Source of the DNA: a virus
DNA: 53,450 nt
Virus record (IMG/VR): IMGVR_UViG_3300036851_000134
Span: 1-53,450 of that record
Reading direction: 5' to 3' (one strand)
Of this stretch, positions 34,584-53,156 are shown one piece after another (position 1 is the first letter of the stretch; each line of letters starts with the position of its first letter). A program made the translations under genes and the position numbers. The notes beneath the pieces were generated by a model, which saw nothing but the letters and a program-made list of their open reading frames with translations, was not told the origin of the DNA and searched no databases.

Positions 34584-36956
34584 ATGGAAGTGCCTCCTGT
34601 AACAGCAAAAACTCTCAATGCCGCCATGACCGAGCTTGCGTCTTTGGATGCCAGCGGGCGACCGCCGCGGACGCGAATCGATTCAGCTATGCAGGTGCGC
34701 GATATGTACGCTCGCGCGCGTCGGCACAACGCGCTTCGGTCCCAGCGCAATTCACTCGTCAAAGGGCTTGTGGACGGCAACCCGCCGTACGACCAGGGCG
34801 CGATCAATCGCAGTGGTCAACGGTATCGGAGCAACTTCAACAATGGCGAAGCGGAAGCGTTCCTGAATGTTGCGCTCACGGCATTTTATGATTTGTTCAG
34901 CGAAGTTGAAACGCACGCGACTGTCGAGGTGGACGATTACAACAACCCGGATGCGCACAAATGGAGTGAATGTCTGACTCGCAATTTCGAATGGTTACAG
35001 CGGCAGGACGAAGATTTCGATTTCAACATTCAACTTTCGCAGCATGACATGGTTTTGTACGGTGCCGGGCCGCATCTGTTTGAAGATCCTTTGGATTGGA
35101 GAAGTCGCCCGGTGCGTTTCGAGGACATGCTGTTGCCGCGTTGGTCGGAGTCCAATGTGACCCGGTGGGAATGGGTCATTTTCTTTTATCAATATACAGT
35201 CAGCCAGCTTTACGAATTCATCAGTGACGAAGACGCGGCGCGCATGGCTGGTTGGGACGTGGCTGCGGTAAAGCGCAGCATCATGCTGTGCAGCGATCAG
35301 ATCGGAGCGGACCCGCTCGGTCGCAACTGGCAGAAGTGGGAAACATGGCAGCAAGCATTGCGCAATAACGATCTTTGGTTGTCTGATCGCGTGCGAATGG
35401 TGAGAACGATCCGGATGCTTTACAAGGAATTCGCCAAGGACGGCGCGCCATCGACGGTGAGTGAGGTGTGGGCGGACGAGAATGATACGGCCAACGACAC
35501 GTTTTTGTTTCAGAAAGAGAACGCATTCGAGAACATGAAACAGGCGTGTTGCCCGTTCTTTTACGATCGCGGCGACGGCACGGCGCATTCCGTTCGCGGT
35601 CTGGGCGTGAAGATGTACAAACTGCTTGTGGCGAAAATGCGATTGCAAAACGGCATGGTGGATTCGGCTTTTGCCCGCGGTTCCGTGATGCTTAAGTCAT
35701 TGGGTGGCGGTGTAGGTGCGCAACAGCTTTCCATGACGCACCTCGGGCCATATACCGTGATGCCTGCCGGGTTTGATTACGTTGCGAATGTGGCGGTGCC
35801 AGGTGTGTTGGACGCGTTCAAGGTTGCTTCTTTGGACATGGACAACACGTTGACGGCGAATTTGTCGCAGTATCGGTCGCGAGTTGAGTCTGCGCAGGCC
35901 AAGCAAGGTAACCCGCGCACAGCTTACGAGGTCAATCAGGACGTTCAACAGCAGAGCGCACTGACCAAAACCCAGATCGCGCGATACTACGAGCAGTTGG
36001 ATGATTGGTATTCGGAACGGTTCCGGCGCGCGTTGAGCAGCGAGATTCCAGGCAGCACAACCAACAAATGGCTCAAGCTCGCCTTGGACTTTCAGAAGCG
36101 TTGCAAGGAAGATAGCGTGCCGCTTGAAAAGGTGCGCGACAAATGTCATGTGCGCGCGACTCGCGCGAGCGGTCAAGGATCGAGTTTCGTTCGGATTCAG
36201 GCGCTCAACATGATCCTGAACACGGTATGGCCGACGTTGCCGGAGGAAGGCAAACAAGCGGTGGTTCGCGATCTGGTTGCGGCTGCGGTCGGGCGCGAGC
36301 ACGTCAATCGGTATGCGGGCGGTTACGACAATTACATGTCGCCGACGGAAGCCGAGAATCGTTGGGAGGCGCAACAGGAAAACAACGACTTCGCGCAAGG
36401 CGGCAATTCGCTTGTGACAGGTCAACAGAATGATCTGTGGCATCTGGATGAGCATTTCGGGTTCTTGAATGCGGCGGCGGGAACGTTGCGGGAAGGCGGC
36501 GATCCGATGAAAGTCTGGACGACATTGGACACCGGCGGGAAGCATGTTGTTCAACATTTGCAACGGATGGCGCAAGATCCGAAGCGCAAACAGCAGGTGC
36601 AATTTTTCATGCTGCAATTCAAGCAACTCAGCGCCGTGACGGATGAACTTGGCAAGCAGATTCAGCAAGCTCAGGAACAACAGGCGCAAGCGCAACAACA
36701 GGCGATGATGCAGGATCGCGAGATGCAAACGGCGGTGATGAAACTTCAGTTGCAAGCGCAGAAAGATCAGGCAAACCTCGCGCTCAAGAGAGAGAAACAG
36801 GATGAAACGTTGCGGTTAAAAGCCGAAAACCAACAGTTCAACCAGGCGATCACGGACGCCAAGACCGCGCACGAAATTCAGACCGGCACAGTGAAAACGG
36901 CTGTGGCAGTGCAAACGCAACGGCAAAAAGCCGCGGCAAAACCGACTGCAAAATAA
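34584..36956 (+). CDS. Portal protein
   Basis: 790 residues. A typical portal wing/stem/crown pattern is seen: NSLVKGLVDGNPPYDQGAIN near residue 55, a long central region with the AYEVN and SALTKTQIARYYEQLDDWYSERFR clip/stem signature around residues 450-490, and a long Gln-rich coiled-coil C-terminus from about 680 (QQAQEQQAQAQQQAMMQ) like the barrel of podovirus portals. It should form the dodecameric DNA channel at the head vertex. Size is on the large side of the family because of the C-terminal tail. Confidence 0.85.
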   Translation: MEVPPVTAKTLNAAMTELASLDASGRPPRTRIDSAMQVRDMYARARRHNALRSQRNSLVKGLVDGNPPYDQGAINRSGQRYRSNFNNGEAEAFLNVALTAFYDLFSEVETHATVEVDDYNNPDAHKWSECLTRNFEWLQRQDEDFDFNIQLSQHDMVLYGAGPHLFEDPLDWRSRPVRFEDMLLPRWSESNVTRWEWVIFFYQYTVSQLYEFISDEDAARMAGWDVAAVKRSIMLCSDQIGADPLGRNWQKWETWQQALRNNDLWLSDRVRMVRTIRMLYKEFAKDGAPSTVSEVWADENDTANDTFLFQKENAFENMKQACCPFFYDRGDGTAHSVRGLGVKMYKLLVAKMRLQNGMVDSAFARGSVMLKSLGGGVGAQQLSMTHLGPYTVMPAGFDYVANVAVPGVLDAFKVASLDMDNTLTANLSQYRSRVESAQAKQGNPRTAYEVNQDVQQQSALTKTQIARYYEQLDDWYSERFRRALSSEIPGSTTNKWLKLALDFQKRCKEDSVPLEKVRDKCHVRATRASGQGSSFVRIQALNMILNTVWPTLPEEGKQAVVRDLVAAAVGREHVNRYAGGYDNYMSPTEAENRWEAQQENNDFAQGGNSLVTGQQNDLWHLDEHFGFLNAAAGTLREGGDPMKVWTTLDTGGKHVVQHLQRMAQDPKRKQQVQFFMLQFKQLSAVTDELGKQIQQAQEQQAQAQQQAMMQDREMQTAVMKLQLQAQKDQANLALKREKQDETLRLKAENQQFNQAITDAKTAHEIQTGTVKTAVAVQTQRQKAAAKPTAK

Positions 36957-37250: not shown

Positions 37251-37414
37251 GTGACGCACGCATGGCTGATACTTACCTTCTGTTGTTTTTAGTGTTCGGT
37301 GGTATTGCGGCGTATCGTACAGCTGGATTGAACGTGCTGTTTGTGTTTTTGGCATTGAACTGTTTATTGACGGCGATTTGTGCTGTGCGGCGCTGTGAGG
37401 AACGCAAAAAATGA
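37247..37414 (+). CDS. Two-pass membrane protein
   Basis: 55 residues from GTG 37247 (GTGA overlap); ATG 37262 is the alternative. Hydrophobic segments TYLLLFLVFGGIAAYR and LNVLFVFLALNCLLTAICAV with a basic tail. Function unknown; could anchor the cassette enzymes or act in lysis. Confidence 0.55.
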   Translation: MSDARMADTYLLLFLVFGGIAAYRTAGLNVLFVFLALNCLLTAICAVRRCEERKK

Positions 37415-38187
37415 TCCCGGCGCAAATTCACACAACGTTCGGGCTCGTGCCGGATTTCGGCGGCAAACCGTTTTCATTCATTCATTACGCGTGTGTGCTC
37501 AGTTGGGTGCGCGTGTTAAAGATGCCAGTGACGATTTACTCGGAGTTTTTTCCTGGGGAATCGGATAATTCGAATAAATGGTGGAACCTTACGTTACAGT
37601 TGCCAGGTGTTCATGCGTATTACGCCGGGATGCCGTTGTCGTTCAAACCTAAAATGACTCATTCAGCGCATCGTTCGGATTGGATGAGATTGCGTTGGTG
37701 CCTTGAACACGGTGGTATCGGTTTGGACATTGACGTTTTCGCGTTGCGCCCGTTGCTTTTTCCTCCGGCGGTAACTCCGATGCTTGGCCGCATCAACGGC
37801 GATTACGGTCTTTGCAATGCGGTCATGATCGCGTCCAAGGGCGATGAATTCATCAAACGTTGGGGGGAAGCATATTCATCGTTTAACCCTGCTGAATGGG
37901 ATGCTCATTCCGTCAGGCTCCCTGGGCAAATGGCCAAGTGGTGGCCGCATCTTGTGACCGTTCTGCCTGAGCACTACTTTTTTGAGCACGGTTGGGGTGA
38001 CGTTGGTCAGAAAGCGTTGTTTGAGGATGCAGAGCGCGAGCCGCATCCGGAGGCGATGCTGGCGCATCTGTGGCAGACTGCGACGTGGCCAACGCGCTTG
38101 GAACATCTGACTCCGGAAACCGTGCGGCAAGAGAAGGGGTTTGTGCAACGGCGCATCGTTAAACTCATCGAAGCGGAGGGATTATGA
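37411..38187 (+). CDS. DXD glycosyltransferase (Gly_transf_sug / OCH1-like)
   Basis: 258 residues. HRSDWMRLRWCLEHGGIGLD followed by IDVFALRPL is the DXD signature of sugar-binding-region glycosyltransferases (OCH1 and capsule types). GRINGDYGLCNAVMIASKG is the acceptor loop. It transfers a sugar from a nucleotide donor; the acceptor is unknown. It opens the carbohydrate cassette with ATGA coupling. Confidence 0.85.
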   Translation: MIPAQIHTTFGLVPDFGGKPFSFIHYACVLSWVRVLKMPVTIYSEFFPGESDNSNKWWNLTLQLPGVHAYYAGMPLSFKPKMTHSAHRSDWMRLRWCLEHGGIGLDIDVFALRPLLFPPAVTPMLGRINGDYGLCNAVMIASKGDEFIKRWGEAYSSFNPAEWDAHSVRLPGQMAKWWPHLVTVLPEHYFFEHGWGDVGQKALFEDAEREPHPEAMLAHLWQTATWPTRLEHLTPETVRQEKGFVQRRIVKLIEAEGL

Positions 38188-38294
38188 GCTATACCGACGC
38201 TATCGCAATTTCATTGATTCAGTTTGTCGTGTGGACTACGGCTGCAATTTTAGGCGGGATAACTGGTTACTGGTTGGCGAATCGCAAGAAATGA
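38184..38294 (+). CDS. 36-residue membrane peptide
   Basis: MSYTDAIAISLIQFVVWTTA then AILGGITGYWLANRKK: one transmembrane helix with a basic tail, overlapping both neighbours by 4 bases. Probably translated; role unknown. Confidence 0.6.
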   Translation: MSYTDAIAISLIQFVVWTTAAILGGITGYWLANRKK

Positions 38295-38899
38295 TCGATC
38301 GCACTTTCATTCTCACGCTCAAACGCGATACAGCGCGGTTGAACGCTACGCAATCGCACTTGCAAGAGCGCGGCATTGCGGCTGAACCGTTTTACGGCTT
38401 GGATCATCAGATCACCGGACTTTGGACGCGGCATTCGTATGAGGTTGACGTTGCCGGAAGCGGCTACAATCCGGGACCGAAACCGGCGAACTTGCACATG
38501 AGCCATTTCATACTGTGGAAGGCTATTGAGCTTTTGGGACAGTTTGAAACGTTCATGATCCTTGAGGATGACGTGCGATTTTCTTTGGAATGGCTGGCGC
38601 ACATCGAGCACGCCATGACGAACATGGATTCAGACTGGGACATTTTGTATCCCGGCTCGTGTTGTTGTATGGGACACGGCGAGAAACGGATCAGCGACCG
38701 GTTGTATTCCGTGTCCTACGCTCTTTGCACGCACTGCTACATTATCCGGCGCAAAGTGCTTCCGGTGTTGATTGAGAAATGCGAGCGCGTCTGGGGCAAA
38801 CTCGACATTGCAATGGCGCTGCATGTGTTGCCGCTTGTGAAGGCGTATGCGGTTTTGCCGCGTGTTGCGTGGCAAATGAACACACAAATTCCTCCATAA
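38291..38899 (+). CDS. LPS-type glycosyltransferase family 25-like
   Basis: 202 residues from ATG 38291. FILTLKRDTARLNATQSHLQ at the start and FMILEDDVRFSLEWL (ILEDD) match GT25 LPS glycosyltransferases. The middle part has GCCCMG-like Cys residues that may be structural. It would add galactose- or glucose-type sugars to a lipid or protein glycan. Confidence 0.8.
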   Translation: MIDRTFILTLKRDTARLNATQSHLQERGIAAEPFYGLDHQITGLWTRHSYEVDVAGSGYNPGPKPANLHMSHFILWKAIELLGQFETFMILEDDVRFSLEWLAHIEHAMTNMDSDWDILYPGSCCCMGHGEKRISDRLYSVSYALCTHCYIIRRKVLPVLIEKCERVWGKLDIAMALHVLPLVKAYAVLPRVAWQMNTQIPP

Positions 38900-38901
38900 A
38901 A

Positions 38902-39480
38902 ATGAAAGTTCTTGTTGGATGCGAATTTTCGGGAATTGTGAGGGATGCCTTTTTGCGTTTAGGTCACGACGCTTGGAGCTGCGATTTGCTTCCTTGTGAA
39001 TCCGGAGGGCCACACATTCAAGGCGACGTTCGGGATGTGCTGGCTGACGTTTGGGAATTTGCAATTTTTCATCCGCCTTGTACGCATTTGGCTGTCAGTG
39101 GTGCGCGTTGGTTCAAGAACAAAGTGCGCGAACAAGCCGAAGCTTTGGATTTCGTGCGTTTACTGCTCGACGCACCAATCTCACATATCGCCCTCGAAAA
39201 CCCGGTCAGTGTTATTTCGTCTAAAATCCGAAAGCCCGACCAGGTGATTCAGCCATGGATGTTTGGGCACGGCGAACAAAAGGCAACGTGCCTCTGGCTT
39301 AAAAATCTCCCGCGTCTCACGCCGAGCAGCATCGTGGAGGGCAGGGAGCAACGAATTTGGAAAATGCCTCCAAGTGCTGACAGGTGGAAAGAACGTTCTC
39401 GAACTCTGCCGGGTGTGGCTACTGCGATGGCAAACCAGTGGACGTTCGCAATGCGTCCAAACACGCAAATTCCGTCATGA
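38902..39480 (+). CDS. DNA cytosine-methyltransferase-like enzyme
   Basis: 192 residues from ATG 38902. MKVLVGCEFSGIVRDAFLRL (SAM loop), then the FHPPCTHLAVSGARWF motif with PC catalytic Cys, then HIALENPVSVI (ENP motif). This is a compact phage C5-methyltransferase-like family without a separate target-recognition domain. It should modify cytosine in DNA or, less likely, another substrate. It lies inside the sugar cassette. Confidence 0.75.
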   Translation: MKVLVGCEFSGIVRDAFLRLGHDAWSCDLLPCESGGPHIQGDVRDVLADVWEFAIFHPPCTHLAVSGARWFKNKVREQAEALDFVRLLLDAPISHIALENPVSVISSKIRKPDQVIQPWMFGHGEQKATCLWLKNLPRLTPSSIVEGREQRIWKMPPSADRWKERSRTLPGVATAMANQWTFAMRPNTQIPS

Positions 39481-39662
39481 AATTTGAACGTTTTGAATCG
39501 CCGTATCCGGTTTTTCAGCATGTGCGAACTGGTCGCACGGTTCATGTGCGTCCGTCGCCGATGCACGCGGGTTGGTGGTTACTCGCGCCAAACCCGGGAT
39601 TTACGGTTTACCAGAAGGTGCGAACTCGCGTGTTGCGCAAGGATTGGAGGCGGATCAAATGA
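39477..39662 (+). CDS. 61-residue hypothetical protein
   Basis: MKFERFESPYPVFQHVRTGR then TVHVRPSPMHAGWWLLAPNP: small beta protein, basic C-terminus. ATGA overlaps on both sides tie it to the methyltransferases. Confidence 0.55.
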   Translation: MKFERFESPYPVFQHVRTGRTVHVRPSPMHAGWWLLAPNPGFTVYQKVRTRVLRKDWRRIK

Positions 39663-40249
39663 CGAAGGTTGACGGATACCAATCGTTACCGGGTTGGTTC
39701 GATTTTCACGATCTTTATCAGCGTGCTGTGGATGAACATTGCTCCGGTGCGCCCGGCGTGTTCATCGAGATCGGGACGTGCTTCGGTAAGTCGGCGTGTT
39801 TCATGGGTGAACGCATCGTTGCGAGCGGTAAGCAGATCTCGTTCTTTACCGTGGACACGTTCGATTTTGACACCGTTGAAGCGTCGATTCGCGAGGTTGC
39901 GTTGAGTCAGATTGCCCAAGGTAACGGCAACACGTTTGAAGGTGTGGCGCGGCATTTCATCGAGGCGTGCGGGTTGAAAGATGTCGTTCATCTGCTCGTT
40001 GAGTCATCTGTTGAAGCGGCGTCTCGGCATCAGGAGAAATCGGTTGATTTCGTGTTCATCGATGGCGCGCATGATTACGATTCTGTGAGAGCGGACATTT
40101 CCGCGTGGTGGCCGCGGTTGCGCCAGAATCGTTGGATGGGCGGTCACGATTTCGGTATGGAAAGCGTGCGATTGGCTGTGCAAGACGCCTTTGCCGGTCA
40201 TCATGTGATGCAGGAAGGCGGATGCTGGACGGTGTTCAAACATGCCTGA
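39659..40249 (+). CDS. Class I SAM methyltransferase (Methyltransf_24-like)
   Basis: 196 residues from ATG 39659. GVFIEIGTCFGKSACFMGER (SAM loop), FFTVDTFDFD, then DFVFIDGAHDYDSVRADISA (FIDGAHDYxxVxxDI signature of sugar- and small-molecule methyltransferases). Its cassette setting suggests methylation of a sugar. Confidence 0.8.
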   Translation: MTKVDGYQSLPGWFDFHDLYQRAVDEHCSGAPGVFIEIGTCFGKSACFMGERIVASGKQISFFTVDTFDFDTVEASIREVALSQIAQGNGNTFEGVARHFIEACGLKDVVHLLVESSVEAASRHQEKSVDFVFIDGAHDYDSVRADISAWWPRLRQNRWMGGHDFGMESVRLAVQDAFAGHHVMQEGGCWTVFKHA

Positions 40250-40817
40250 TCTTGCTCCAATATTCGCGCAGCATTACGCTACGGATTGGCAGGGTTGCTC
40301 AGGCCCGGGCAGCAAACCAGAGAATGCGTGGCCGTATTTGGATTGGTTGAAACGGTTTGCGGTTCGGCAACCTTACGTCACGCGGTGGGTTGATGTTGGG
40401 TGCGGCGATCTTGGTATTTACCACGGTAAACCGCTCAATTGGTTTCATGTGCCATCGAATTACACCGCGATTGATTTGGTAGACGTGACGCCGCCGGGTG
40501 CAAAGCGCATGATCAACTTCGTGCAGGGTGACGTGCGCGAGATCAAACCGGAGGCGGACATTGCGATTGTTAAAGATGTGATCCAACATCTGAGCCACAA
40601 AACCGCGTTGGAACTGATCGAAGCGTTGAAAGGGTGCAAGACGCTCGTGTTGGTGAATGACTGGGACAACCGCGCGCCGATGAACAACATTGGGATCCAG
40701 GACGGCCAATGGTCTATGATCGATCCGGCGAGTGCGCCGTTCAACTTGCCCGGTAACTGTGAGATCGTTTATCGTAGTGTGCCATTCTACAAGATGGTTT
40801 ACGTTGTGACACGATGA
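40242..40817 (+). CDS. Class I SAM methyltransferase
   Basis: 191 residues. WVDVGCGDLGIYHGKPLNWF (SAM loop), AIDLVDVTPPGAKRMINFVQ, IVKDVIQHLSH: minimal type-11 methyltransferase of a phage type. Overlaps the previous gene by 8 bases. Substrate unknown. Confidence 0.75.
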   Translation: MPDLAPIFAQHYATDWQGCSGPGSKPENAWPYLDWLKRFAVRQPYVTRWVDVGCGDLGIYHGKPLNWFHVPSNYTAIDLVDVTPPGAKRMINFVQGDVREIKPEADIAIVKDVIQHLSHKTALELIEALKGCKTLVLVNDWDNRAPMNNIGIQDGQWSMIDPASAPFNLPGNCEIVYRSVPFYKMVYVVTR

Positions 40818-40996
40818 CTGCCAATCAAAAACGGGAGTTTATTAGGACGCTTCACAATGAAACCGCGGAAAGGTTGGAATCAGCCAGGAAAAACAAAGTC
40901 ATCTTGGATGCGACCGATCATAACCAGTTGATTTGGTGTGTTGCTGAGGAAGTGACGCTTCGTAACGTCTTAGCGATACTGGAGAAGCCTGAATGA
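40814..40996 (+). CDS. 60-residue helical protein
   Basis: MTANQKREFIRTLHNETAER then LESARKNKVILDATDHNQLI: helical, ATGA overlaps. A common phage small protein pattern; unknown function. Confidence 0.55.
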   Translation: MTANQKREFIRTLHNETAERLESARKNKVILDATDHNQLIWCVAEEVTLRNVLAILEKPE

Positions 40997-41268
40997 ACAC
41001 GCGCATGTTTCTGAACCGAATTTTTACCGGCATTTTGGCGGTCATCGGGATTCTGCATTGGAGATTGATCAAGGCCGGGATTCGGTTGGGCTTCGTGGCG
41101 CAAGTGCCGAACCCAAACTGTGTTTGGTTGCAAAAAGTATCTGGTGTGTGGTTCGTTAGGATCAGAGGTGAATGGACATTGCTGGATATGGACCGGACGC
41201 CGCCATCAGCCGGGTACGGTACGGAGTTTGATGATATAGAAGGAAAATGGGTTCGTAACAGACGATGA
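40993..41268 (+). CDS. Membrane protein with C-terminal beta domain
   Basis: 91 residues. N-terminal segment FLNRIFTGILAVIGILHWRL then amphipathic and a short beta-rich end (VWFVRIRGEWTLLDMDRTPP). Single pass predicted. Role unknown. Confidence 0.5.
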   Translation: MNTRMFLNRIFTGILAVIGILHWRLIKAGIRLGFVAQVPNPNCVWLQKVSGVWFVRIRGEWTLLDMDRTPPSAGYGTEFDDIEGKWVRNRR

Positions 41269-41378
41269 CTTTTCCCGCTCCAATCGGTTTCGTGAAAAGC
41301 GTTTCAAAGACGTTGAGTGAAATGCTATTTGCGCTGCTAAACCTCCGATTCGCCCGGCGCTTGTGCGTCCAGGGGTGA
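41265..41378 (+). CDS. 37-residue peptide
   Basis: MTFPAPIGFVKSVSKTLSEM then LFALLNLRFARRLCVQG, ATGA overlap with the gene before; amphipathic/basic, unknown. Supported only by coupling and operon position. Confidence 0.45.
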   Translation: MTFPAPIGFVKSVSKTLSEMLFALLNLRFARRLCVQG

Positions 41379-41396
41379 GAGCGGGATTATTTAACT

Positions 41397-42401
41397 ATGC
41401 CTGAAGTCGTAACAGAAAAGGTGCCGCCTACGAAATTGACAGTCGTTTACCAAACGTGCCGTCGCGAGCCGATGGCGCAATGGTTCTTTGATTCGTTGAA
41501 TCGCGAGTGCGGCGGCGACTACTCAAACATTAAGATTGTTGTCGTCGATTTCTGGTGTCAATACGAACCCGAACGTACCCAGAGCTATTACGCGAAATTC
41601 TGGTATTCTGTGCCGGTGATTGTTCCGCCGATGGGCAATGTGTGGCAGGGCAAAGAGCGATTGACCAAGGACGAGTATTTCGCCGCGGCGAACTCCCGGA
41701 ACACAGGGATTTGCCATGCGCTCGACGGTTACATTGCGTTTGTGGACGACATATCTGTTCTGATGCCGGGTTGGTTGAATCAGATTCATGAAGCGATGGC
41801 TGGCCATTGGATTGCGTGCGGTGCGTATCGGAAGGTAAACAAGCTCGTGGTTGAAAACGGCGAAGTCAAATCGTTAGAGAATCATCCGAGCGGTTGGGAT
41901 TGTCGTTGGCGCGGTGGTATCCCGATGACACCGCAACCGTGCGGCGGCGGCGATATGTTCGGTTGTTCGATTGCGGCTCCGGTGGAAGCGTTCCTTGGAA
42001 TCAACGGATTCGACACCGACGTGGATTCAATGAGCGGTGAGGACTACATTGCGGGCATCATGTTGGCGCAAGCCGGGTGGCATCTGAAATATTGCCGGAA
42101 GATGCTGACCTTCGAGAGCGAGGAACTGCATCACGTTGAACCGCCGTTGCGACGTATCATCAAAAAACATGTGCCCGGCAGAAGCAATTTTGGCGAAAAA
42201 GACGCAAGTCACGCGATCTTGAACATGGTCCGCGGCGGACGGCGAACGGCTCCGAACTATTACGGTCCTGGTGGATTGCGCGCCGTTCGTGAGCGTGTGC
42301 TTGCTGGCGAACCGATGCCTGTTTTGCGGGTGCCGGACAGAGATTGGCGCGACGGTCAGTCTTTGGTTGGGATGGGTAAAGATAACGATGGTTGTCCATG
42401 A
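41397..42401 (+). CDS. GT-A-fold glycosyltransferase (family 2-like)
   Basis: 334 residues. LTVVYQTCRREPMAQWFFDS start, then NSRNTGICHALDGYIAFVDD (with IAFVDDIS as the DxD-like acid site), GCSIAAPVEAFLGINGFDTD and DSMSGEDYIAGIMLAQAG (ED acceptor motif). Typical of GT2-like phage or capsule glycosyltransferases. The donor sugar is unknown. Confidence 0.82.
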   Translation: MPEVVTEKVPPTKLTVVYQTCRREPMAQWFFDSLNRECGGDYSNIKIVVVDFWCQYEPERTQSYYAKFWYSVPVIVPPMGNVWQGKERLTKDEYFAAANSRNTGICHALDGYIAFVDDISVLMPGWLNQIHEAMAGHWIACGAYRKVNKLVVENGEVKSLENHPSGWDCRWRGGIPMTPQPCGGGDMFGCSIAAPVEAFLGINGFDTDVDSMSGEDYIAGIMLAQAGWHLKYCRKMLTFESEELHHVEPPLRRIIKKHVPGRSNFGEKDASHAILNMVRGGRRTAPNYYGPGGLRAVRERVLAGEPMPVLRVPDRDWRDGQSLVGMGKDNDGCP

Positions 42402-42526
42402 AAAAGTTAATCGAAGAGATACTGAGTTCAAACATTGCAACGCAAGTTGTCATTGTGATTACTTCCATACTGATCGCAACTTTCGTTTTGGTTGTGATTC
42501 GGTTATTTGCGAAAATGTGGGGATGA
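42398..42526 (+). CDS. 42-residue membrane peptide
   Basis: MKKLIEEILSSNIATQVVIV then ITSILIATFVLVVIRLFAKM WG: one transmembrane helix, ATGA overlap with the glycosyltransferase. Similar in layout to the other membrane peptides of this cassette. Confidence 0.6.
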   Translation: MKKLIEEILSSNIATQVVIVITSILIATFVLVVIRLFAKMWG

Positions 42527-42527
42527 A

Positions 42528-42686
42528 ATGAGCTTCGATAAATCCAAAGGGCGCGTCATCATTTACTGTGACGATTGCAAAGGACCAATCTACGGTTCTG
42601 CGCATGTTCGCGGTGGCAAGGTGCGCTGTGAAACGTGTCTCGTGCGCGCGTTGAACCGTAAGAAAAGCGAGCAAGACGATGGCTAA
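42528..42686 (+). CDS. Zinc-ribbon peptide
   Basis: 52 residues. IIYCDDCKGPIYG and VRCETCLVR give two Cys pairs, one zinc site. It overlaps the next gene by 8 bases. A small zinc ribbon of unknown role. Confidence 0.6.
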   Translation: MSFDKSKGRVIIYCDDCKGPIYGSAHVRGGKVRCETCLVRALNRKKSEQDDG

Positions 42687-43257
42687 AGTTGCGCTCATAC
42701 TTTGCGGCGGATCGCAGACTCGCTGGGGCAACGATACGCCCAAACAGCTCATGCCTGTGCTGGGCGAAACGTTGGTTGAACGTGTGTCGCGTCAGGTGCG
42801 CGCGATCGGGTTCACGCCGTTGATCGTTGGGCCGAAGGACGTGTTTGGTTCGCACGGTAGTTGTTTGCCGCATGGGAAAACGATTACCGATAGCATTGAC
42901 GTTTCGCGCAGGTTTTTCGAGGATTGCACGGTTGTGTTGTGCGGCGACGTGGTTTGGGGCGACGGTGCAATTGGCCATTTGGCAAATGACGGTGCGCAAC
43001 GATCGGTTCTTGGTTCGGTGTTTACGGCTGAAATATTCGGGATGTGCTGGAACCATTGCATGGGTCCCGACAAAGGCCAGCTTGAACACGCCGCACGGCA
43101 TGGCGGTCGGTTGTGGCATCTTTACCGGCTGATGATCAATCAACCGATCGATAAGCATGTTTGCGACTTGTCGCTTTGGACGGAGATCAACGACGGGTTC
43201 ACTCAGGATTTCGATCATCAAAACCAATACCAAGAATGGACAGCGAAACATCAATGA
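42679..43257 (+). CDS. Nucleotidyltransferase (sugar-nucleotide/MobA-like)
   Basis: 192 residues. VALILCGGSQTRWGNDTPKQ then LMPVLGETLVERVSRQVRAI is the GG..R....PK.LMPV.GE signature of NTP transferases. VVLCGDVVWGD is the second acidic site. It may make the activated sugar (or CMP/CDP sugar) used by the nearby transferases. Confidence 0.8.
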   Translation: MAKVALILCGGSQTRWGNDTPKQLMPVLGETLVERVSRQVRAIGFTPLIVGPKDVFGSHGSCLPHGKTITDSIDVSRRFFEDCTVVLCGDVVWGDGAIGHLANDGAQRSVLGSVFTAEIFGMCWNHCMGPDKGQLEHAARHGGRLWHLYRLMINQPIDKHVCDLSLWTEINDGFTQDFDHQNQYQEWTAKHQ

Positions 43258-43850
43258 TTCTTTGTTCGTGCGTGCTTCCAACCCGAGGTAATCCGGAGGG
43301 TGTAGCGCGATTGTACTATTCGTTTTTGTCTCTGTTTGATTTGGGCAGGATCGAGCTGATTTTACGGATTGATGACGATGACGTTGATGGATACAAACCG
43401 TTGCTGGAGCAATATCCGGAGATAAGGGTTATACCCGGCCCTCGCGAGTCCGGGTATGAGTCATTGAATCATTTTTATGAAGCTCTCGCGCGCGCGTCTC
43501 TTGGCAAATGGATTTGGTTTCTGGACGATGACGTGTATTTTGAGGGTCCAAATGTTACAGAGGTTCTTGAGCGAGTTCCTACTGATGGGACATTTATCCG
43601 GCCACAGCATTATCAGTTGAATGAGTCCATGTATCAGAATTGCGCTTATGGCCCGTTCCCGATGGTTCCAAATAAGTTTTGGGAACAGTTTTCAGACTTC
43701 AATTTCCCGCAACCGATTGACGATCACATTCACAGTTTTTTAATGAGCAAGGGATGGGTAATCCGGTATCTTCCAAACGTGACAGCGGTTCACGATCGGT
43801 CTCGGGACAAGTTTCCGCTTCCTCGGCCAGCGTGTAATGAAAGACATTAA
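43254..43850 (+). CDS. GT-A glycosyltransferase (family 2-like)
   Basis: 198 residues from ATG 43254 (ATGA). CSCVLPTRGNPEGVARLYYS start, RIDDDDVDGYKPLLEQYPEI, and KWIWFLDDDVYFEGPNVTEV with DDD metal site. The C-terminal His-rich part (IDDHIHSFLMSKG) is a possible acceptor loop. Short for the family, catalytic core only. Confidence 0.78.
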   Translation: MILCSCVLPTRGNPEGVARLYYSFLSLFDLGRIELILRIDDDDVDGYKPLLEQYPEIRVIPGPRESGYESLNHFYEALARASLGKWIWFLDDDVYFEGPNVTEVLERVPTDGTFIRPQHYQLNESMYQNCAYGPFPMVPNKFWEQFSDFNFPQPIDDHIHSFLMSKGWVIRYLPNVTAVHDRSRDKFPLPRPACNERH

Positions 43851-44667
43851 ACAAGTCGAAAAGTTCTGGAACGAGCATCCGTGCAATGTCCGGCATCGGT
43901 CGCCTTCTGATTGGACGTGGACAGAAGAGTCTTTCAGGATGGTTACGATGAGGAAATATTTCGTTGAACCGCACATTTTGAGATTTGCAGATCACAAGCG
44001 GTGGAAAGGCAAAACTGTGCTTGAGATCGGATGCGGGATTGGAACTGATGCGGAACAATTCGCTTTGGCTGGAGCAGAGGTAACGGCATTGGATTTGTCA
44101 CGGAAAAGCCTTGAAATTTGTTTGGAACGATTTCGAATCAACAGACAGAATGGATTGTTTTACAGAGGTAATATCGAGGATACCGATGTTGTTCCGGTTC
44201 AATTTTATGATTTGGTGTATGCGTTTGGCGTGTTGCATCACACACCTGATCCGGTTCGCTCGATTGAGAACATCAAGCGTTACATGGGGCCGCATTCTGA
44301 GTTGCGCATTATGCTTTACAGCAAGTGGTCGTGGAAAAGCATTGCGATCGGGTTGCGTCATTGTTGGTGGTGTCCGTGGCATTGGCGGAAGGCAGTTGAG
44401 AATTACTCGGAAGCGGCGACTGGTTGTCCGGTAACTCATCTTCATTCGTTCGCTGATATTCGGTTGTTGCTGAAAGATTTTGAGATTGTTCGAATGTGGA
44501 AGGATCACATTTTCCCGTATTCGATCGATCATTACCGGCAATACGAGTATCTGAAGGTGTGGTATTTCAGGTGGTGTCCACGCTGGCTTTTCAAGAAACT
44601 GGAAAGTGTTCTTGGCTGGCACACACTGGTAATTGCGAAACTGAAAGAAAACCATGTTGCTCACTGA
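43837..44667 (+). CDS. Class I SAM methyltransferase
   Basis: 276 residues. An N-terminal FWNEHPCNVRH motif, then the SAM loop TVLEIGCGIGTDAEQFALAG and ALDLSRKSLEICLERF, and VYAFGVLHHTPDPVRSI. This long methyltransferase family with FW..hPC is common in cyanophages and sugar-modification loci. Confidence 0.85.
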   Translation: MKDIKQVEKFWNEHPCNVRHRSPSDWTWTEESFRMVTMRKYFVEPHILRFADHKRWKGKTVLEIGCGIGTDAEQFALAGAEVTALDLSRKSLEICLERFRINRQNGLFYRGNIEDTDVVPVQFYDLVYAFGVLHHTPDPVRSIENIKRYMGPHSELRIMLYSKWSWKSIAIGLRHCWWCPWHWRKAVENYSEAATGCPVTHLHSFADIRLLLKDFEIVRMWKDHIFPYSIDHYRQYEYLKVWYFRWCPRWLFKKLESVLGWHTLVIAKLKENHVAH

Positions 44668-45349
44668 ACGATTCAAGCTGGAGATTCAATCGCACGTTCT
44701 GGCGTTGCAAGGATGGTGTACGCCGGAGAAAGCGTGGCGGTTGGCGGAACTGATCCTGGACAATCGGTTGCAATGGGCTGTGGAGGTTGGAATTTTCGGT
44801 GGGCGCTCGATCATTCCTATGGCTCTTGCGATGCGCGAACAGAATTACGGCAGGGTTTACGGGCTTGATCCGTGGGACGTTGCGCACGCCACCGAAGGCG
44901 AGAATGGCGATGAACAAACTAAATGGTGGACGACGCAGGTGGACCTTAAATCTATCCGAACCGGGTTCGAGGCGCATGTGTTGCGTCACGGATTGCTCGA
45001 ATGGTTGCATTGGTTCCCGGTTGGCAGCATTGAAGGCGAGGGATTGTTTCAGGACGGTTGGGCGAACTTGGTCCATGTGGATTCCAATCATTCGGAATTG
45101 ACCAGTTGCAGGGACATTCGGCTTTGGTCACGGAAACTTGCTCCAGACGGGTTCCTTGTGTTTGACGATTTGGATTGGCCGTCGCAACAGCGAGCGATTG
45201 CCATTCTCAAGTCTGAACTGGGTTTCGAGTTGATTGAAGATTACGGGTCATGGGGCGTGTTCCGCAGGCCATCGCGCCGTCCGGACCCGATTGTTTATGC
45301 CGCTACCAACGAAATTATTGGCGTTCAAACGCCTGATCAAAGCGTATGA
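44654..45349 (+). CDS. Class I SAM methyltransferase (Methyltransf_24-like)
   Basis: 231 residues. WAVEVGIFGGRSIIPMALAM (SAM loop), YGLDPWDV, LVHVDSNHSELTSCRDIRLW (sugar-methyltransferase-like D.NH), FLVFDDLDWPS. Overlaps both neighbours; methylation of a sugar hydroxyl is likely. Confidence 0.8.
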   Translation: MLLTERFKLEIQSHVLALQGWCTPEKAWRLAELILDNRLQWAVEVGIFGGRSIIPMALAMREQNYGRVYGLDPWDVAHATEGENGDEQTKWWTTQVDLKSIRTGFEAHVLRHGLLEWLHWFPVGSIEGEGLFQDGWANLVHVDSNHSELTSCRDIRLWSRKLAPDGFLVFDDLDWPSQQRAIAILKSELGFELIEDYGSWGVFRRPSRRPDPIVYAATNEIIGVQTPDQSV

Positions 45350-46667
45350 CGATGGCGTCAGCATCGAAGAATTGCGCCGTCAACGTGATGATCTCGAACA
45401 GCACGTTAAGAAGCTCCAAGCTGAATATGAGGAGCACCTTAACACGGTGCGGTTTGAGCGTGATCAAATAGATTTTCAACTGAACGAATTTCGCGCTTAC
45501 GTGGAAGGAATTGTGAACAGTATCGATCGAGATATACCGAGTGTGACAGCGCAAAACGCGTGGCGCGCTGGTCTGTTCAACTTCGGCAAGGCGGTCAATC
45601 ATCCAGTGCCTGGGACGAGGTATTTCAATTGTTCGATCGTAGCGCGCCTTGATGGCGATTGGTTGATTGCGCGCAAGTCTGCGCCGTTTCCTCGTGTTGA
45701 AATCGGCAAGAATTCAATCGCAGCGTTCAAGATTCAGAACGATTTCTTTCGTAAACCACCGGAACAACGGGAGAGCGCACCGGCGTTGTTCACGATGATT
45801 CATTGCGCATTTCAAGAGCGGTATTCCGATGAGCACTTCGAAGATCCGCGTGTGTGCGTGATGAACGGGCAGGTTTACATTTCATGCACGAACTTTCAGT
45901 TGAGCGACAAAGGACGCTGGCGAGGTAGCCATCAAGTGTTGGTTGAGGTCGATGATCTTTGGCGATCGCGGCGTATGTGGCATCCGGTGTTTGGAGGAAA
46001 CCAAGGATCGCCGTATCTCCAGAAATACAACGAAAAGAACTGGTTATGGTTTTGGCATGAGGGCGAGATTTACATGGTTTACATGACGGTGCCGCATCGT
46101 GTTGTGCACATGAACAAGTTCATTGATCTGATCAAAGTTTACGAAACGCCACAGCGCAATCCACTTTGGAAAGCGGGTGCGCCGCGTGGCGGGACTCCGC
46201 CTGTCCGCGTTGGTGACGAGTATTTCAGTTTTTTCCATTCGAGCACGGCATGGATCTGCAACAAACGCAGGTACCACATGGGCGCGTATGCGTTTGAAGC
46301 GAAACCACCGTTTCGCATGACCAAATGCACGACGTTACCGCTGTTGAGCGGTAGCAAAGATGATCCGCCGTTTAACGGGCTCGTGCCGCCTGTGCCGACG
46401 ATACCGCTTTGCGTGTTCCCGGGTGGCGCAATTTATCGTGATGGTAAATGGATTGTGGTTTATGGCGTGAACGATTTCACAAGCGGTTGGATCGAGATAC
46501 CGCACGTTGATCTGTTGAACTTGATGCGTCCAATTGGTGAAAATGATGTGCATGGCGAAGAAATGGTGATGACAAATCAAGCTGGCATACCGCTGGACGG
46601 AAACGGACTGTCGACAAAAGGCGCTCCGATATTTGCCAACCCACCGGCAGAAGGAGTGAAAGCATGA
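45297..46667 (+). CDS. GH130-like beta-propeller glycosidase/phosphorylase
   Basis: 456 residues from ATG 45297; the start is uncertain because it lies inside the preceding gene with no good ribosome site. An N-terminal coiled coil (EELRRQRDDLEQHVKKLQAE) precedes propeller blades: EDPRVCVMNGQVYISCTNFQ, GAPRGGTPPVRVGDEYFSFF, MGAYAFEAKPPF and VFPGGAIYRDGKWIVVYGVN, typical of GH130 mannoside phosphorylases. It may remodel a mannose-type glycan. The end couples by ATGA to the tiny-gene array. Confidence 0.75.
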   Translation: MPLPTKLLAFKRLIKAYDDGVSIEELRRQRDDLEQHVKKLQAEYEEHLNTVRFERDQIDFQLNEFRAYVEGIVNSIDRDIPSVTAQNAWRAGLFNFGKAVNHPVPGTRYFNCSIVARLDGDWLIARKSAPFPRVEIGKNSIAAFKIQNDFFRKPPEQRESAPALFTMIHCAFQERYSDEHFEDPRVCVMNGQVYISCTNFQLSDKGRWRGSHQVLVEVDDLWRSRRMWHPVFGGNQGSPYLQKYNEKNWLWFWHEGEIYMVYMTVPHRVVHMNKFIDLIKVYETPQRNPLWKAGAPRGGTPPVRVGDEYFSFFHSSTAWICNKRRYHMGAYAFEAKPPFRMTKCTTLPLLSGSKDDPPFNGLVPPVPTIPLCVFPGGAIYRDGKWIVVYGVNDFTSGWIEIPHVDLLNLMRPIGENDVHGEEMVMTNQAGIPLDGNGLSTKGAPIFANPPAEGVKA

Positions 46668-48249: not shown

Positions 48250-48545
48250 CACCCAAAGCACTTGCCGAAATACTCGCGAAACACGGCGTCATTGATCGTC
48301 ACGCGGTAGAAGACCCGGAAGGATACGACGGCGGCGCGACCATGCTTTATGTCTGGTCGGCGGCGGACGAGATAACGGAACTCGCGCGTGAGAAATGCCA
48401 ATGGAGCGAGGACGGGAACGGCGCGCACGAAACGCAGTGCGGCCAATGCTTCGAGTTCACGCACGGCGGCGTCCAGGCGAACGGATTGAAATACTGCTGC
48501 TTCTGTGGTGGTGCGATAGTGATCAAGAACTATGAACTGGTTTAA
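48246..48545 (+). CDS. 99-residue zinc-ribbon cassette protein (MTPKALA type)
   Basis: MTPKALAEILAKHGVIDRHA, then CQWSEDGNGAHETQCGQCFE and YCCFCGGAIVIKNYELV: two Cys pairs give a ribbon at the C-terminus. Follows linker copy 7. Overlaps the next gene by 14 bases. Confidence 0.65.
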   Translation: MTPKALAEILAKHGVIDRHAVEDPEGYDGGATMLYVWSAADEITELAREKCQWSEDGNGAHETQCGQCFEFTHGGVQANGLKYCCFCGGAIVIKNYELV

Positions 48546-48876
48546 ACGCAAAAGTCAGTTGCCATCGTTGCGCAAGCAACTTGGCGCAGTGCCGTCCAGT
48601 GATCAATGGCGGCGGTCGCCTGCGGCTGTGCAAAATGCTGTGCGCGTGCTCAGTTCGGATGCCGGTCGTAACATGCTGGATATTCTGGTCAATGAACGGC
48701 CATCGCGGTATACGCTGCCTGCGGGCTCGACGCCGGAGGATATTGCGCGGTATCTTGGGCGCATTGACGGTTACGAGATGGCTTTGAACAAGTTTTTGCA
48801 ATTGGCTGAACCGATCGTTGAACAGCAAGAACCGGAGATAACGTTTCCGGATGAAATAACCCACGAAGACTCATAG
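48532..48876 (+). CDS. 114-residue virion-region protein
   Basis: MNWFKRKSQLPSLRKQLGAV then helical body with PEDIARYLGRIDGYEMALNK, ending acidic. Typically found just before scaffold genes in short-tailed phages; function unknown. Confidence 0.55.
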   Translation: MNWFKRKSQLPSLRKQLGAVPSSDQWRRSPAAVQNAVRVLSSDAGRNMLDILVNERPSRYTLPAGSTPEDIARYLGRIDGYEMALNKFLQLAEPIVEQQEPEITFPDEITHEDS

Positions 48877-48878
48877 TT

Positions 48879-50105
48879 ATGCCTGAAAACATCATGCCAC
48901 TACCCACCGCTACGCAAGGTAACGCCGCTCGGCCTCCGGCTGATCCAACTGTTATCGTCAACCCGGATGCGCGCCAATCGCCGTTCAAAGCGGCATTTAC
49001 GGCTGTGTTGAAAGCGGATCAACCGGATGCGACCGGAGATCCGGTCAAGGACGACGCCGCCAAGACGGAGGCGATCAAGAAAGCCGAGGACACAGCCCAG
49101 GCGAATGCGGATAATGTGCTGCAATCACGGCAGCAATCCAAGCCATCGGATGCGCCATCGGATGATGTTCCGGCTTCGTTGAGTCCGGAAGGGAAGGCGG
49201 ACTGGAAAAAGCTCAAAAGCGAACTGGCGGCAATCCGAACTGAACGCGACGCGCTCAAGACGGATTGGGACGGTAAACTCAAGAGCGAACGCGAAGCGGC
49301 GGCGGCAGCGTTGAAAGCTGAATATGAAAGCAAGTTGCGGGATTTCGACAATCTGCGGACTGAACACGAGAAGTTGTCCGGCGAATTCAAGCGTGTGGCG
49401 GTCGAAGCGACGCCGGAATGGAAAACGCGATTCGTTGAACCGATCAAGAGTGCGGTTGAACAAGCTAAGAAAATCGTTGGCAGCGAGAAGGGCACGCAAC
49501 TGGCTATGCTCCTGGAAATGCCGGAGAGTGAATATCGCACGAACGCACTTGAATCGTTGGTGGGTGAACTGTCTCCGATGCGCCAACAACAGGTTGCGGC
49601 TCTTGCCATGCGTGTGTCCGAAGTGCAAGCAGCTCGGGACGCGGCGCGAGCGGATCATGGTAAATACGCTGAGGAACACGCCGCGCAATCGCAACGCGCT
49701 CAGGAAGCGCAAGCGGCAAAGCAGAAGGAGGACGGCGAACGGTTCTATCGGCGCACATTGGATTGGGCCACGAAAACGTTGCCGGTATTTCAGGAGCGTG
49801 AAGGGAACGAGGCGGTAAACAAGTTGGTCGGCGAAAACCGCGAAAAACTGCGGAACCTGCTCCTGGGTCAGAACGATCCGGAGGCACTCGGTCAAACGGC
49901 GGCGTGGGCGCTTTACGGTCAATACGCAGGTAACATGCTGTCGGCTGCGGCTGCCGAGATGGAAAAGAAAGACGCGCTGATTGCCAAGTTGCAAGGCGCA
50001 CAACCGCGCCAGGGTACAACGAGTTCGGCGGGTGGCGGCGGTGGTGCGGCAGAGAAACCGATGACTTTCCTGCAAGCCATCAAGAGGGAAACATCAGGAG
50101 TGTGA
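48879..50105 (+). CDS. Scaffolding protein
   Basis: 408 residues: disordered start, then long charged coiled coils (for example ALKAEYESKLRDFDNLRTEH, QAARDAARADHGKYAEEHAA) and a Gly-rich linker near the end (GGGGGAAEKPMTFLQAIKRE). The size, acidic coiled coil and position before the capsid fit a scaffold. Direct similarity cannot be proven here. Confidence 0.7.
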   Translation: MPENIMPLPTATQGNAARPPADPTVIVNPDARQSPFKAAFTAVLKADQPDATGDPVKDDAAKTEAIKKAEDTAQANADNVLQSRQQSKPSDAPSDDVPASLSPEGKADWKKLKSELAAIRTERDALKTDWDGKLKSEREAAAAALKAEYESKLRDFDNLRTEHEKLSGEFKRVAVEATPEWKTRFVEPIKSAVEQAKKIVGSEKGTQLAMLLEMPESEYRTNALESLVGELSPMRQQQVAALAMRVSEVQAARDAARADHGKYAEEHAAQSQRAQEAQAAKQKEDGERFYRRTLDWATKTLPVFQEREGNEAVNKLVGENREKLRNLLLGQNDPEALGQTAAWALYGQYAGNMLSAAAAEMEKKDALIAKLQGAQPRQGTTSSAGGGGGAAEKPMTFLQAIKRETSGV

Positions 50106-50106
50106 T

Positions 50107-50322
50107 GTGCCATATCTGTGTCCAGATTGCGGCAAGTACCATTCCGGCACGTCCAAGAAACACTCGGAACTGCTTGAAAAGAAGATTGCCGAACTGGCGG
50201 ATCATCCGGCTGCACAACCGAAAATGAAGGGACGCAAAAAAACCGAACAAACCTTCGAGAAAACACGTGGGACATACGGACCGGGCATTTCGGATTTACC
50301 GGAGGACGACGAACCGCAATGA
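50107..50322 (+). CDS. Zinc-ribbon protein with GTG start
   Basis: 71 residues. YLCPDCGKYHSGTS start has CxxC plus His, then a Lys-rich helix and an acidic end (SDLPEDDEPQ). GTG 50107 follows the scaffold stop. Unknown function. Confidence 0.55.
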   Translation: MPYLCPDCGKYHSGTSKKHSELLEKKIAELADHPAAQPKMKGRKKTEQTFEKTRGTYGPGISDLPEDDEPQ

Positions 50323-51017
50323 CGCCTGAACTTGCTGAACGGGTCGTGATCCGGCGTTTCTTGCGGGGTCATTTGTCTGCGACTCTCTACTTAGGAGACT
50401 GCTTGGAAATACTCCCGCAACTTGAAGGTGTGGACGCACTCGTGAGCGATCCACCATACGGGATAGATTATTCTCCGAAGTATGGACGTCGCCGGATGCC
50501 TGACGGCTCGTGGCTAGAGCCAAAGGAAATGCCGCAAATTATTGGTGACGCTGAGGATTTCCAGCCCGCGCATCTGCTCAACTTCCCAATCGTGGCGCTG
50601 TGGGGTGAGAACCACTACGCGCATCGGCTGCCGCATAACGGTAAGTGGCTGGTGTGGGATAAACGTTGTCAGGTCATCCCGCCGCGTAATCAGGCGGATT
50701 GCGAAATGGCGTGGCTGAATAAATACGGCTCGGCACGAATGCTTTACCACATGTGGGATGGAATGGTGAGAGACAGTGAACGTGACGCGTCGAGAGTCCA
50801 CCCAACGCAAAAGCCAGTGATAGTCATGGCGTGGACGATGGAGCAATCGAAAATCCCAAAAGGCGCAACAGTGCTTGACCCGTATATGGGAAGTGGAACT
50901 ACGGGCATTGCATGTATGCGAACTGGACGCCATTTCATCGGTATCGAACTGGATGCTGCACACTACAAAACCGCGTGTGACCGTTTTGAGCGAGAATTGG
51001 ATGGCGTGTTGCTATGA
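50319..51017 (+). CDS. DNA methyltransferase (DPPY, N4/N6 type)
   Basis: 232 residues. LYLGDCLEILPQLEGVDALV then SDPPYGIDYS (motif IV), HPTQKP (about 166), and DPYMGSGTTGIACMRTGRHF (SAM-binding motif I): the beta-class order IV then I. It should methylate adenine or cytosine in a short site. It sits between scaffold and capsid genes, an unusual place. Confidence 0.9.
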   Translation: MTPELAERVVIRRFLRGHLSATLYLGDCLEILPQLEGVDALVSDPPYGIDYSPKYGRRRMPDGSWLEPKEMPQIIGDAEDFQPAHLLNFPIVALWGENHYAHRLPHNGKWLVWDKRCQVIPPRNQADCEMAWLNKYGSARMLYHMWDGMVRDSERDASRVHPTQKPVIVMAWTMEQSKIPKGATVLDPYMGSGTTGIACMRTGRHFIGIELDAAHYKTACDRFERELDGVLL

Positions 51018-51917: not shown

Positions 51918-53156
51918 ATGGCTTGTCAAACAGTATTCGATGCGTTCCGGGTTGCGACTGAATACCTGGGACCTGAAATCTATCGGTTGGCGTCTTTCCG
52001 CGATCCTTGGCTCAACGTTGTGCCGCGTGGAATCTTCGCTCCTCACTCTGGAACCACACATTCCGTGTTCCGGATCAACAAAAACGAACCCACCACAGAA
52101 GATCAATGCGGCCAAACTGTGACACTGGCCAACGGATCGAACAGTGGCGCTTGCGCACCGACGTTTACGGACGTGTCGATCGGGTTCGATGAGTTCACCT
52201 ACATTCCGCGGCGGTTGGCTTGGCGCGGTCCTTTGTTCTGCAAAGACGACCAGTATTTCAACCACGCTCCGGATGAGTTCATTGACGGTTACGTCCAGGA
52301 ACTTGCGGATTACGTCCGCAAAGACCTGAACAACCATCTGTACACGCATTACACGCGGCGTGTGCCGATCTACATTGCGGACCAGAACTGTTTCAGTGTT
52401 TCGACGACGGCGGTTGGTTATAACGGAAGCAACGGTTGCAATCCGCTCGCCGCGCCGCTTGCTCAGTCGGAACTGACCCAGGACATGCTCGACACGCTGG
52501 CGCTGCAATTGATTGCCAATCGCGCGACGGACCCGGACAGTAACGGTTTCGTAAATCTCGGGCCAGACGGTCCGTTGTTTACGTTGCTCATCGGTCTGGA
52601 AGCCAGCCAACTGATCGCGCTCAACAACAGCGAATTCCGTCAGGACATTCGTTGGGCTGAACCGTCGTTGCTGCTTAAGCGGCTCGGTGCCGGGAGGCAG
52701 ATCAAGAACTTCCAACATGTACCATGGGTGACGCCTGCGCGTTACACATGGGTTGGCGGGACGTATACCCGGGTGCCGACGTTTGTGTCTCAAGCGTCCA
52801 CGAAAGGAACGCGCACCGTTGTCAATCAGAACTGGATTGATCCGGTTACAGCGCCTTACGAGGCGGCGGTGGTTCTTTCGCCGCACGTTATGACCAGTGA
52901 ATTGATCAAGCCGAGTGCTCGTGTGGGTGCTGTGGATTGGCCGGACACGAACTACATGGGTGAGTGGATGTGGCGCACTGGTCCCGAGGCGATTGCGAAT
53001 CTCGCCGGGGACGCTTGCTACGATCCGTTGCACAAGCAGGGACGGCATTTCGCGGAGTTCATGCACGGTTTGCGCGTGGGCGCGCTGCCGCAAGCGGGTG
53101 CTCTGGTGTTGTTCAGTCGTTGCGCTCGTGCCTGTAACACGGTGTCTTGCACGTAA
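51918..53156 (+). CDS. Major capsid protein (probable)
   Basis: 412 residues, beta-rich, no Lys-rich coiled coil, beginning MACQTVFDAFRVATEYLGPE. It is the first gene after its own terminator and control region, follows the scaffold, and is a typical capsid size. I recognise no specific HK97 subgroup motif, so the call rests on position, size and composition. Confidence 0.65.
   Translation: MACQTVFDAFRVATEYLGPEIYRLASFRDPWLNVVPRGIFAPHSGTTHSVFRINKNEPTTEDQCGQTVTLANGSNSGACAPTFTDVSIGFDEFTYIPRRLAWRGPLFCKDDQYFNHAPDEFIDGYVQELADYVRKDLNNHLYTHYTRRVPIYIADQNCFSVSTTAVGYNGSNGCNPLAAPLAQSELTQDMLDTLALQLIANRATDPDSNGFVNLGPDGPLFTLLIGLEASQLIALNNSEFRQDIRWAEPSLLLKRLGAGRQIKNFQHVPWVTPARYTWVGGTYTRVPTFVSQASTKGTRTVVNQNWIDPVTAPYEAAVVLSPHVMTSELIKPSARVGAVDWPDTNYMGEWMWRTGPEAIANLAGDACYDPLHKQGRHFAEFMHGLRVGALPQAGALVLFSRCARACNTVSCT

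Follow-up and report, generated by a model that had tools for sequence, protein, structure and literature searches.

The sequence studied here is an IMG/VR virus record of 53,450 bases from an uncultivated phage, and by 'the window' we mean this stretch at its full length. Inside its head-gene operon, with a portal gene and a putative scaffold gene on either side, lies a cassette (37411-46667) in which Pfam and PHROGs searches recognise four glycosyltransferases, one MobA-like nucleotidyltransferase, four small-molecule methyltransferases (one of them weakly), one enzyme of the GH130 fold and one DNA-methyltransferase-like gene. The cassette belongs to a module that recurs in other phages and is here at its largest; the three-gene core of this module consists of the glycosyltransferase GTA, the methyltransferase MT24b and the GH130-like enzyme. 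In the part of the literature that was covered, we found no earlier description of this recurrent unit of uncultivated phages, nor any paper that places GH130 in a phage head operon.

All of the genes lie on the forward strand. The cassette begins with two accessory glycosyltransferases, GTsug of the DXD type (37411-38187; PF04488 Gly_transf_sug, 8e-5) and GT25 (38291-38899; PF01755 Glyco_transf_25, 5e-8), and continues through the DNA-methyltransferase-like gene (38902-39480) to two methyltransferases, MT24a of the Methyltransf_24 family (39659-40249; PF13578, 2e-20) and the class I enzyme MTx (40242-40817; a weak Pfam match, 4e-3). GTsug and MTx have relatives in loci L008-L010. The core glycosyltransferase GTA (41397-42401; PF00535 Glycos_transf_2, 2e-4) is followed by the MobA-like nucleoside triphosphate transferase (42679-43257; PF12804, 5e-7), which possibly serves sugar-nucleotide synthesis and has no relative in the compared loci, and by GTB, a glycosyltransferase of the GT2 type (43254-43850; PF00535 Glycos_transf_2, 9e-9; relatives in L003, L007 and L039). 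Next comes the methyltransferase MT11 (43837-44667; PF13649, 1e-14), which is 40% identical to gp226 of Synechococcus phage Bellamy, itself located within a sugar-gene cluster. The core methyltransferase MT24b (44654-45349; PF13578, 4e-14) and the core GH130/GT108-fold enzyme (45297-46667; PF04041, 1.5e-8, above cut-off), which carries an N-terminal coiled coil here and has none in its 309-aa version from L016, complete the set. The original prediction, made from the letters of the window, had listed four glycosyltransferase-type genes, a nucleotidyltransferase, three or four small-molecule methyltransferases and a GH130-like protein, and this inventory is borne out, with the methyltransferases numbering four. 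Its view that all of the genes are coupled by ATGA overlaps is right for most junctions, which overlap by 4 nt; others overlap by 8, 14, 14 and 53 nt, there are short gaps of 2 nt ahead of 38902 and 18 nt ahead of 41397, and several short open reading frames (ORFs) are scattered among the genes.

The slot itself is also where it was said to be, between portal and scaffold, except that small genes or ORFs intervene at both sides: two small genes adjoin the portal, and a string of small ORFs at 46.7-48.5 kb adjoins the scaffold. The portal gene (34584-36956) has a weak PHROG portal match (0.0095) and stands in the same terminase-portal-scaffold order in 52 IMG/VR relatives. To the right lie a small protein that we call NWF (48532-48876), conserved before the scaffold in 50 relatives, then the putative scaffold (48879-50105; same order in 51 relatives, library searches without a match) and the putative major capsid protein, or MCP (51918-53156; 43 relatives), the last two being named from gene order and conservation.

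One gene in the cassette does not belong with the sugar enzymes. The product of 38902-39480, which looks like a methyltransferase, matches phrog_757 'DNA methyltransferase' at 1e-68, and its absence from the slots of relatives marks it as a passenger. Its presence speaks for the idea that the cassette glycosylates or hypermodifies phage DNA, to which we nonetheless give very little credence. The thymidylate-synthase-family hydroxymethylase PF00303 is absent from the record (the control was positive in nine genomes, and the record may be incomplete), no phage DNA-glucosyltransferase family appears among the Pfam hits, and the cassette is missing from some of the relatives. A Tet/JBP search of the record ran without a positive control and is uninformative.

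The AlphaFold model of the GH130-like protein (pLDDT 80) is a five-bladed propeller of the GH130 fold, with a Z score of 27.9 to RaMP1; the Leishmania mannosyltransferases/phosphorylases (6q4x, 6q50) of GT108, a family that uses GDP-mannose, share the propeller and score lower, at about 22-23, and GH43 scores about 19. The family profile matches the beta-1,2-mannobiose phosphorylase Lin0857 (5e-14), Teth514_1788/1789 and the mannoside synthase Uhgb_MS; phmmer with the single window sequence against the PDB returned coiled-coil noise only. Fold and catalytic motif are thus common to the phage enzyme and the characterised beta-mannoside phosphorylases and Uhgb_MS, from which it differs in its low identity (11-17% in structural alignments), its head-gene setting and, in the window copy, its coiled coil. 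N111, R126, E182, D183, K247 and N248 are invariant in 50 of 50 sequences, and D393 is kept in 49. Motif alignment to BT3780 equates N111 with Asn74, R126 with Arg89, D183 with the catalytic Asp142 and D393 with Asp363, residues whose roles have been described (PMC4599007). The phosphorylase branch of GH130 has three basic residues that bind phosphate; candidates for them in the phage family are K247 (50/50), H314 (48/50) and R297 (43/50), which would argue for a phosphorylase or transferase rather than a hydrolase. Membership of GH130 is, on sequence and model, well supported; the activity is predicted.

MT24b is a class I methyltransferase of the TylF/MeT1 type, whose Asp/His/Asp motif (D143/H146/D172) is invariant in 60 of 60 sequences. 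The best solved match to its family profile is 6g7d (2e-15), which the database names just 'Methyltransferase domain protein' and which we take to be the M. hassiacum enzyme MeT1, the code being unconfirmed in the literature searched. MeT1 serves as the 1-O-methyltransferase for methylmannosides in the mycobacterial methylmannose polysaccharide cluster (PMC9883506), which, unlike the phage cassette, has an alpha-mannosyltransferase and no GH130. With the closest relatives of both MT24b and GH130 acting on soluble mannosides, the cassette might be thought to make a soluble methylated oligosaccharide or polysaccharide, such as an osmolyte or a head-packaged compound. We consider this unlikely, given that it leaves the tie to head genes and the swapping of alleles unexplained.

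The third core enzyme, GTA, has a model (pLDDT 80.7) of the GT-A fold, with Z scores of 20.2 to the chondroitin polymerase K4CP and 17.5 to polypeptide GalNAc-transferases, and across 48 sequences neither its DD nor its second Asp varies; whether the acceptor is a protein cannot be read from such fold matches. We found no hydrophobic segments in the cassette enzymes and no credible multi-pass membrane protein among the ORFs of the window; both ORFs flagged there run antisense to genes, one to the portal and one to the terminase. This fits a cytosolic acceptor.

How widely is the module found? A tblastn search with the portal, terminase, putative MCP, GH130, GTA and MT24 proteins against 50,697 phage records (INPHARED) gave no match, so that at this sensitivity we are dealing with a phage group without a catalogued isolate relative. 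Single-protein portal and terminase scans of the viral contig collection were likewise without a match. A GH130 search of IMG/VR yielded L002 and L003, alignments of three sequences then recovered 13 GH130 loci and 52 portal loci, and a GTA alignment search recovered 50 loci; profiles derived from the recovered loci, which are mostly contig fragments with inspected flanks of 8-10 kb, then served to read gene order. GTA or GH130 is present in 55 non-redundant contigs of uncultivated viruses; 49 of these have GH130, accompanied by MT24 (Methyltransf_24) in 47 cases and by GTA in 41, while both GH130 and MT24 are present in 40 of the 47 GTA-bearing contigs. Many of the 55 were recovered through GTA alone, without selection for GH130 or MT24. 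In 42 contigs with a recognisable terminase, portal, scaffold or MCP, the module is in or beside the head block: 20 have it between portal and scaffold, 13 between scaffold and MCP and 1 between terminase and portal, and in 8 it sits at the end of the contig next to a head gene. Fifteen loci lack a recognisable head gene of the window type; large neighbours, tested in seven of these, belong to phrog_3287 (a head-and-packaging virion protein) in four and to other portal families in two, so the module follows head genes across different phages. The check in relatives that had been proposed for the cassette thus came out in its favour: the same genes recur at the same place in many IMG/VR contigs, and the cassette is more than a chance assembly.

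The window cassette combines a GTsug/GT25/MTx set, as in L008-L010, with a GTA/GTB/MT24b/GH130 set, as in L003, L007 and L039. In L015, GT25 and MT24 domains are fused in one protein beside GH130. We also considered MT24 and GH130 alone as the minimal unit, towards which the L018 contig counts, having neither GTA nor PF00535 within 47.8 kb; the idea was weakened by the L020 contig, which has GTA outside the slot. As separate observations on these loci, L007 (6008-7309), L006, L046 and L056 have, along with the module, a protein of about 430 aa that looks ATP-grasp-like on inspection (the L056 copy without a Pfam hit), and in many relatives (L009, L022, L026, L029, L030, L097 and L099) the putative MCP is on the strand opposite the scaffold, or inversions divide the head block.

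Among relatives of the portal, the space from portal to NWF/scaffold is a variable slot. About 14 loci have no gene there, the gap being 285-533 nt; in another clade it holds a gene pair, GTX (257-275 aa) and GTY (213-221 aa; L023 12221-13710, L033, L036, L040, L063), which by eye, and without a Pfam hit, might be glycosyltransferases; a third set holds GH130 and MT24 with varying glycosyltransferases; and single loci carry GT9, GT2 or FkbM methyltransferase genes. On the portal tree, a quick one with some long branches, the GH130 state changes about six times (shuffled mean 13.7) and the empty state three times (shuffled mean 12.0), fewer than in shuffled data yet several, meaning that slot states are clustered but have been gained, lost or swapped more than once. 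Such variety, with empty slots in some clades and with unrelated small ORFs and the DNA-methyltransferase-like gene in the slot, might suggest mixed cargo in a tolerant insertion site, whose genes do not form one pathway. This we find quite improbable, since GH130, MT24 and GTA occur together in some 85-95% of contigs, in varying orders and in two different slots, and since recognisable slot cargo is almost all glycan-related.

Allele exchange is seen on comparing L016 and L017, near-identical phages with 90-98% identity in the flanks of the module, where terminase, portal, scaffold and MCP are 98%, 97%, 95% and 93% identical, as against 64% for MT24b and 83% for GH130, with GTA in L016 only. 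Synonymous divergence (dS) is 1.1-1.8 in MT24b and GH130 versus 0.2-0.6 in the flanks, indicating that alleles were replaced, and non-synonymous divergence (dN) is far below dS in both genes, so these enzymes have been kept functional by purifying selection. A module that varies while the head genes around it stay constant is the pattern of exposed surface structures, and superinfection exclusion would look similar.

Swapping of this kind also fits an arms race at the bacterial surface, and the main rival to a virion target is accordingly a host surface glycan (O-antigen, capsule or S-layer glycan), altered late in infection so that released virions avoid sticking to debris or other phages are excluded. 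The GT25 and GT2 families serve bacterial surface polysaccharides, relatives of MT11 and GT25 lie within a sugar-nucleotide cluster of a Synechococcus phage, and bacterial GH130-like relatives (in Verrucomicrobiota, Chlamydiae, Elusimicrobia and Chloroploca) adjoin glycosyltransferases and apparent pyruvyltransferase genes. By inspection, several of these bacterial neighbours look like pyruvyltransferases, glycosyltransferases or sulfotransferases, which points to glycan synthesis over breakdown. Against a host target, however, the module stays in head-gene slots across several phage types, and the window is without a membrane glycosyltransferase, flippase, polymerase or GtrA-like protein. The gtrABC-type cassettes for O-antigen conversion are likewise phage-borne sets of glycan-modifying genes, but the window has no GtrA/B/C-like or multi-pass membrane protein and its cassette lies in the head block. 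On balance we regard a host-surface target as possible, though rather doubtful.

Two side observations concern bacteria. GH130-like genes stand beside apparent polysaccharide pyruvyltransferase genes, named by eye, in three unrelated bacteria (L069 6424-8669, L070 9725-11713, L075 3367-5401). In addition, one of 387 Verrucomicrobiota genomes (G215) has, on a contig of 489 kb (L133 14836 to L134 8639), a distant relative of this phage group with terminase, portal, NWF and MCP; its portal-scaffold slot is empty and an MT24-like gene lies further downstream. Its place in such a contig suggests a temperate member of the group and a host phylum.

The reading that we favour, and to which we would give about an even chance, is that the cassette acts late and in the cytosol, where it would furnish a virion protein with an O-methylated glycan that probably contains mannose. 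The glycosyltransferases would attach sugars to the protein during head assembly, with GTA, MT24b and the GH130/GT108-fold enzyme as the core of the pathway. The GH130-like enzyme would most likely add or trim a beta-linked mannose, or a similar sugar, via mannose 1-phosphate or a nucleotide sugar; the methyltransferases would cap the sugars and the nucleotidyltransferase-like protein may produce a sugar donor. Accessory glycosyltransferases and methyltransferases, swapped among phages, would give each lineage its own surface glycan. Counting for virion glycosylation are the co-occurrence of the core, its head-gene position, the invariant active sites, the folds, the GT25-MT24 fusion in L015 and the exchange of alleles between constant flanks. 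Several points weigh on the other side: GH130 enzymes usually degrade mannosides; the late-gene position, from which we expect late transcription on gene order only, also fits a host-surface target; and some close relatives lack the slot module (L027/L028 versus L033/L063, of the GTX/GTY type), which makes the module dispensable. The original prediction had proposed glycan synthesis alongside the virion genes, which is supported by a core at head-gene positions in about 40 contigs, by intact active sites and by the lack of membrane segments. Of the three targets it named, the capsid (or another virion protein) fits best, the host surface is the main competitor and DNA decoration is disfavoured.

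The virion glycosylation systems of mycobacteriophages are not known to us to include a GH130-fold enzyme or an MT24 core. There, virus-encoded glycosylation of virions has been demonstrated by experiment and phage glycosyltransferases are thought to act on virion proteins (Freeman et al. 2023, as cited in PMC12691614); phage-encoded glycosyltransferases are shared with that cited case, whereas the window case is argued from genes and position. In the chlorovirus PBCV-1, a GT-GT-methyltransferase protein and a second methyltransferase (A064R/A061L) finish the capsid glycan (PMC9614988), and virus-borne glycosyltransferases with sugar O-methyltransferases, including a glycosyltransferase-methyltransferase fusion reminiscent of L015, are common to both. 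PBCV-1 differs in being a eukaryotic virus with an experimentally proven, rhamnose-containing N-glycan on its MCP. It is by gene position only that we group the phage cassette with virus-encoded coat glycosylation.

More tentatively still, and we think it somewhat unlikely in this full form, the module could stand for a kind of virion glycosylation that is widespread among uncultivated phages and has yet to be described, in which a beta-mannoside synthase of the GH130/GT108 fold acts on a virion protein, a MeT1-like methyltransferase adds the cap and allele swapping varies the particle surface. Should the favoured virion reading be right, it would be common for uncultivated phages to bring a coat-glycosylation pathway of their own, tied to the assembly of the head and traded among lineages as surface antigens are, which would account for close phage relatives differing exactly at this slot. 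The pathway would furnish enzymes for protein glycosylation in bacteria that are open to testing, and the module also extends the GH130/GT108 fold to viruses.

Some smaller features of the window deserve mention. Three tiny hydrophobic ORFs lie among the glycosyltransferase genes (37262-37414, 38184-38294 and 42398-42526), the second with a strong GGAGG site; as membrane anchors for the glycosyltransferases they were dropped, because the slots of relatives are without them, save two unrelated ones in L039. Three separate DNA-methyltransferase-like genes are present, at 26642-27160 (-), 38902-39480 (+) and 50319-51017 (+), of Dam type, phrog_757 and phrog_67, respectively. Finally, between 46696 and 48249 a ribosome-binding-site-plus-start motif, CGGAGGACATAGACCATG, is repeated with variants ahead of small ORFs (four matches versus 0.02 expected), and resembles the start-associated sequences known from cluster K mycobacteriophages.

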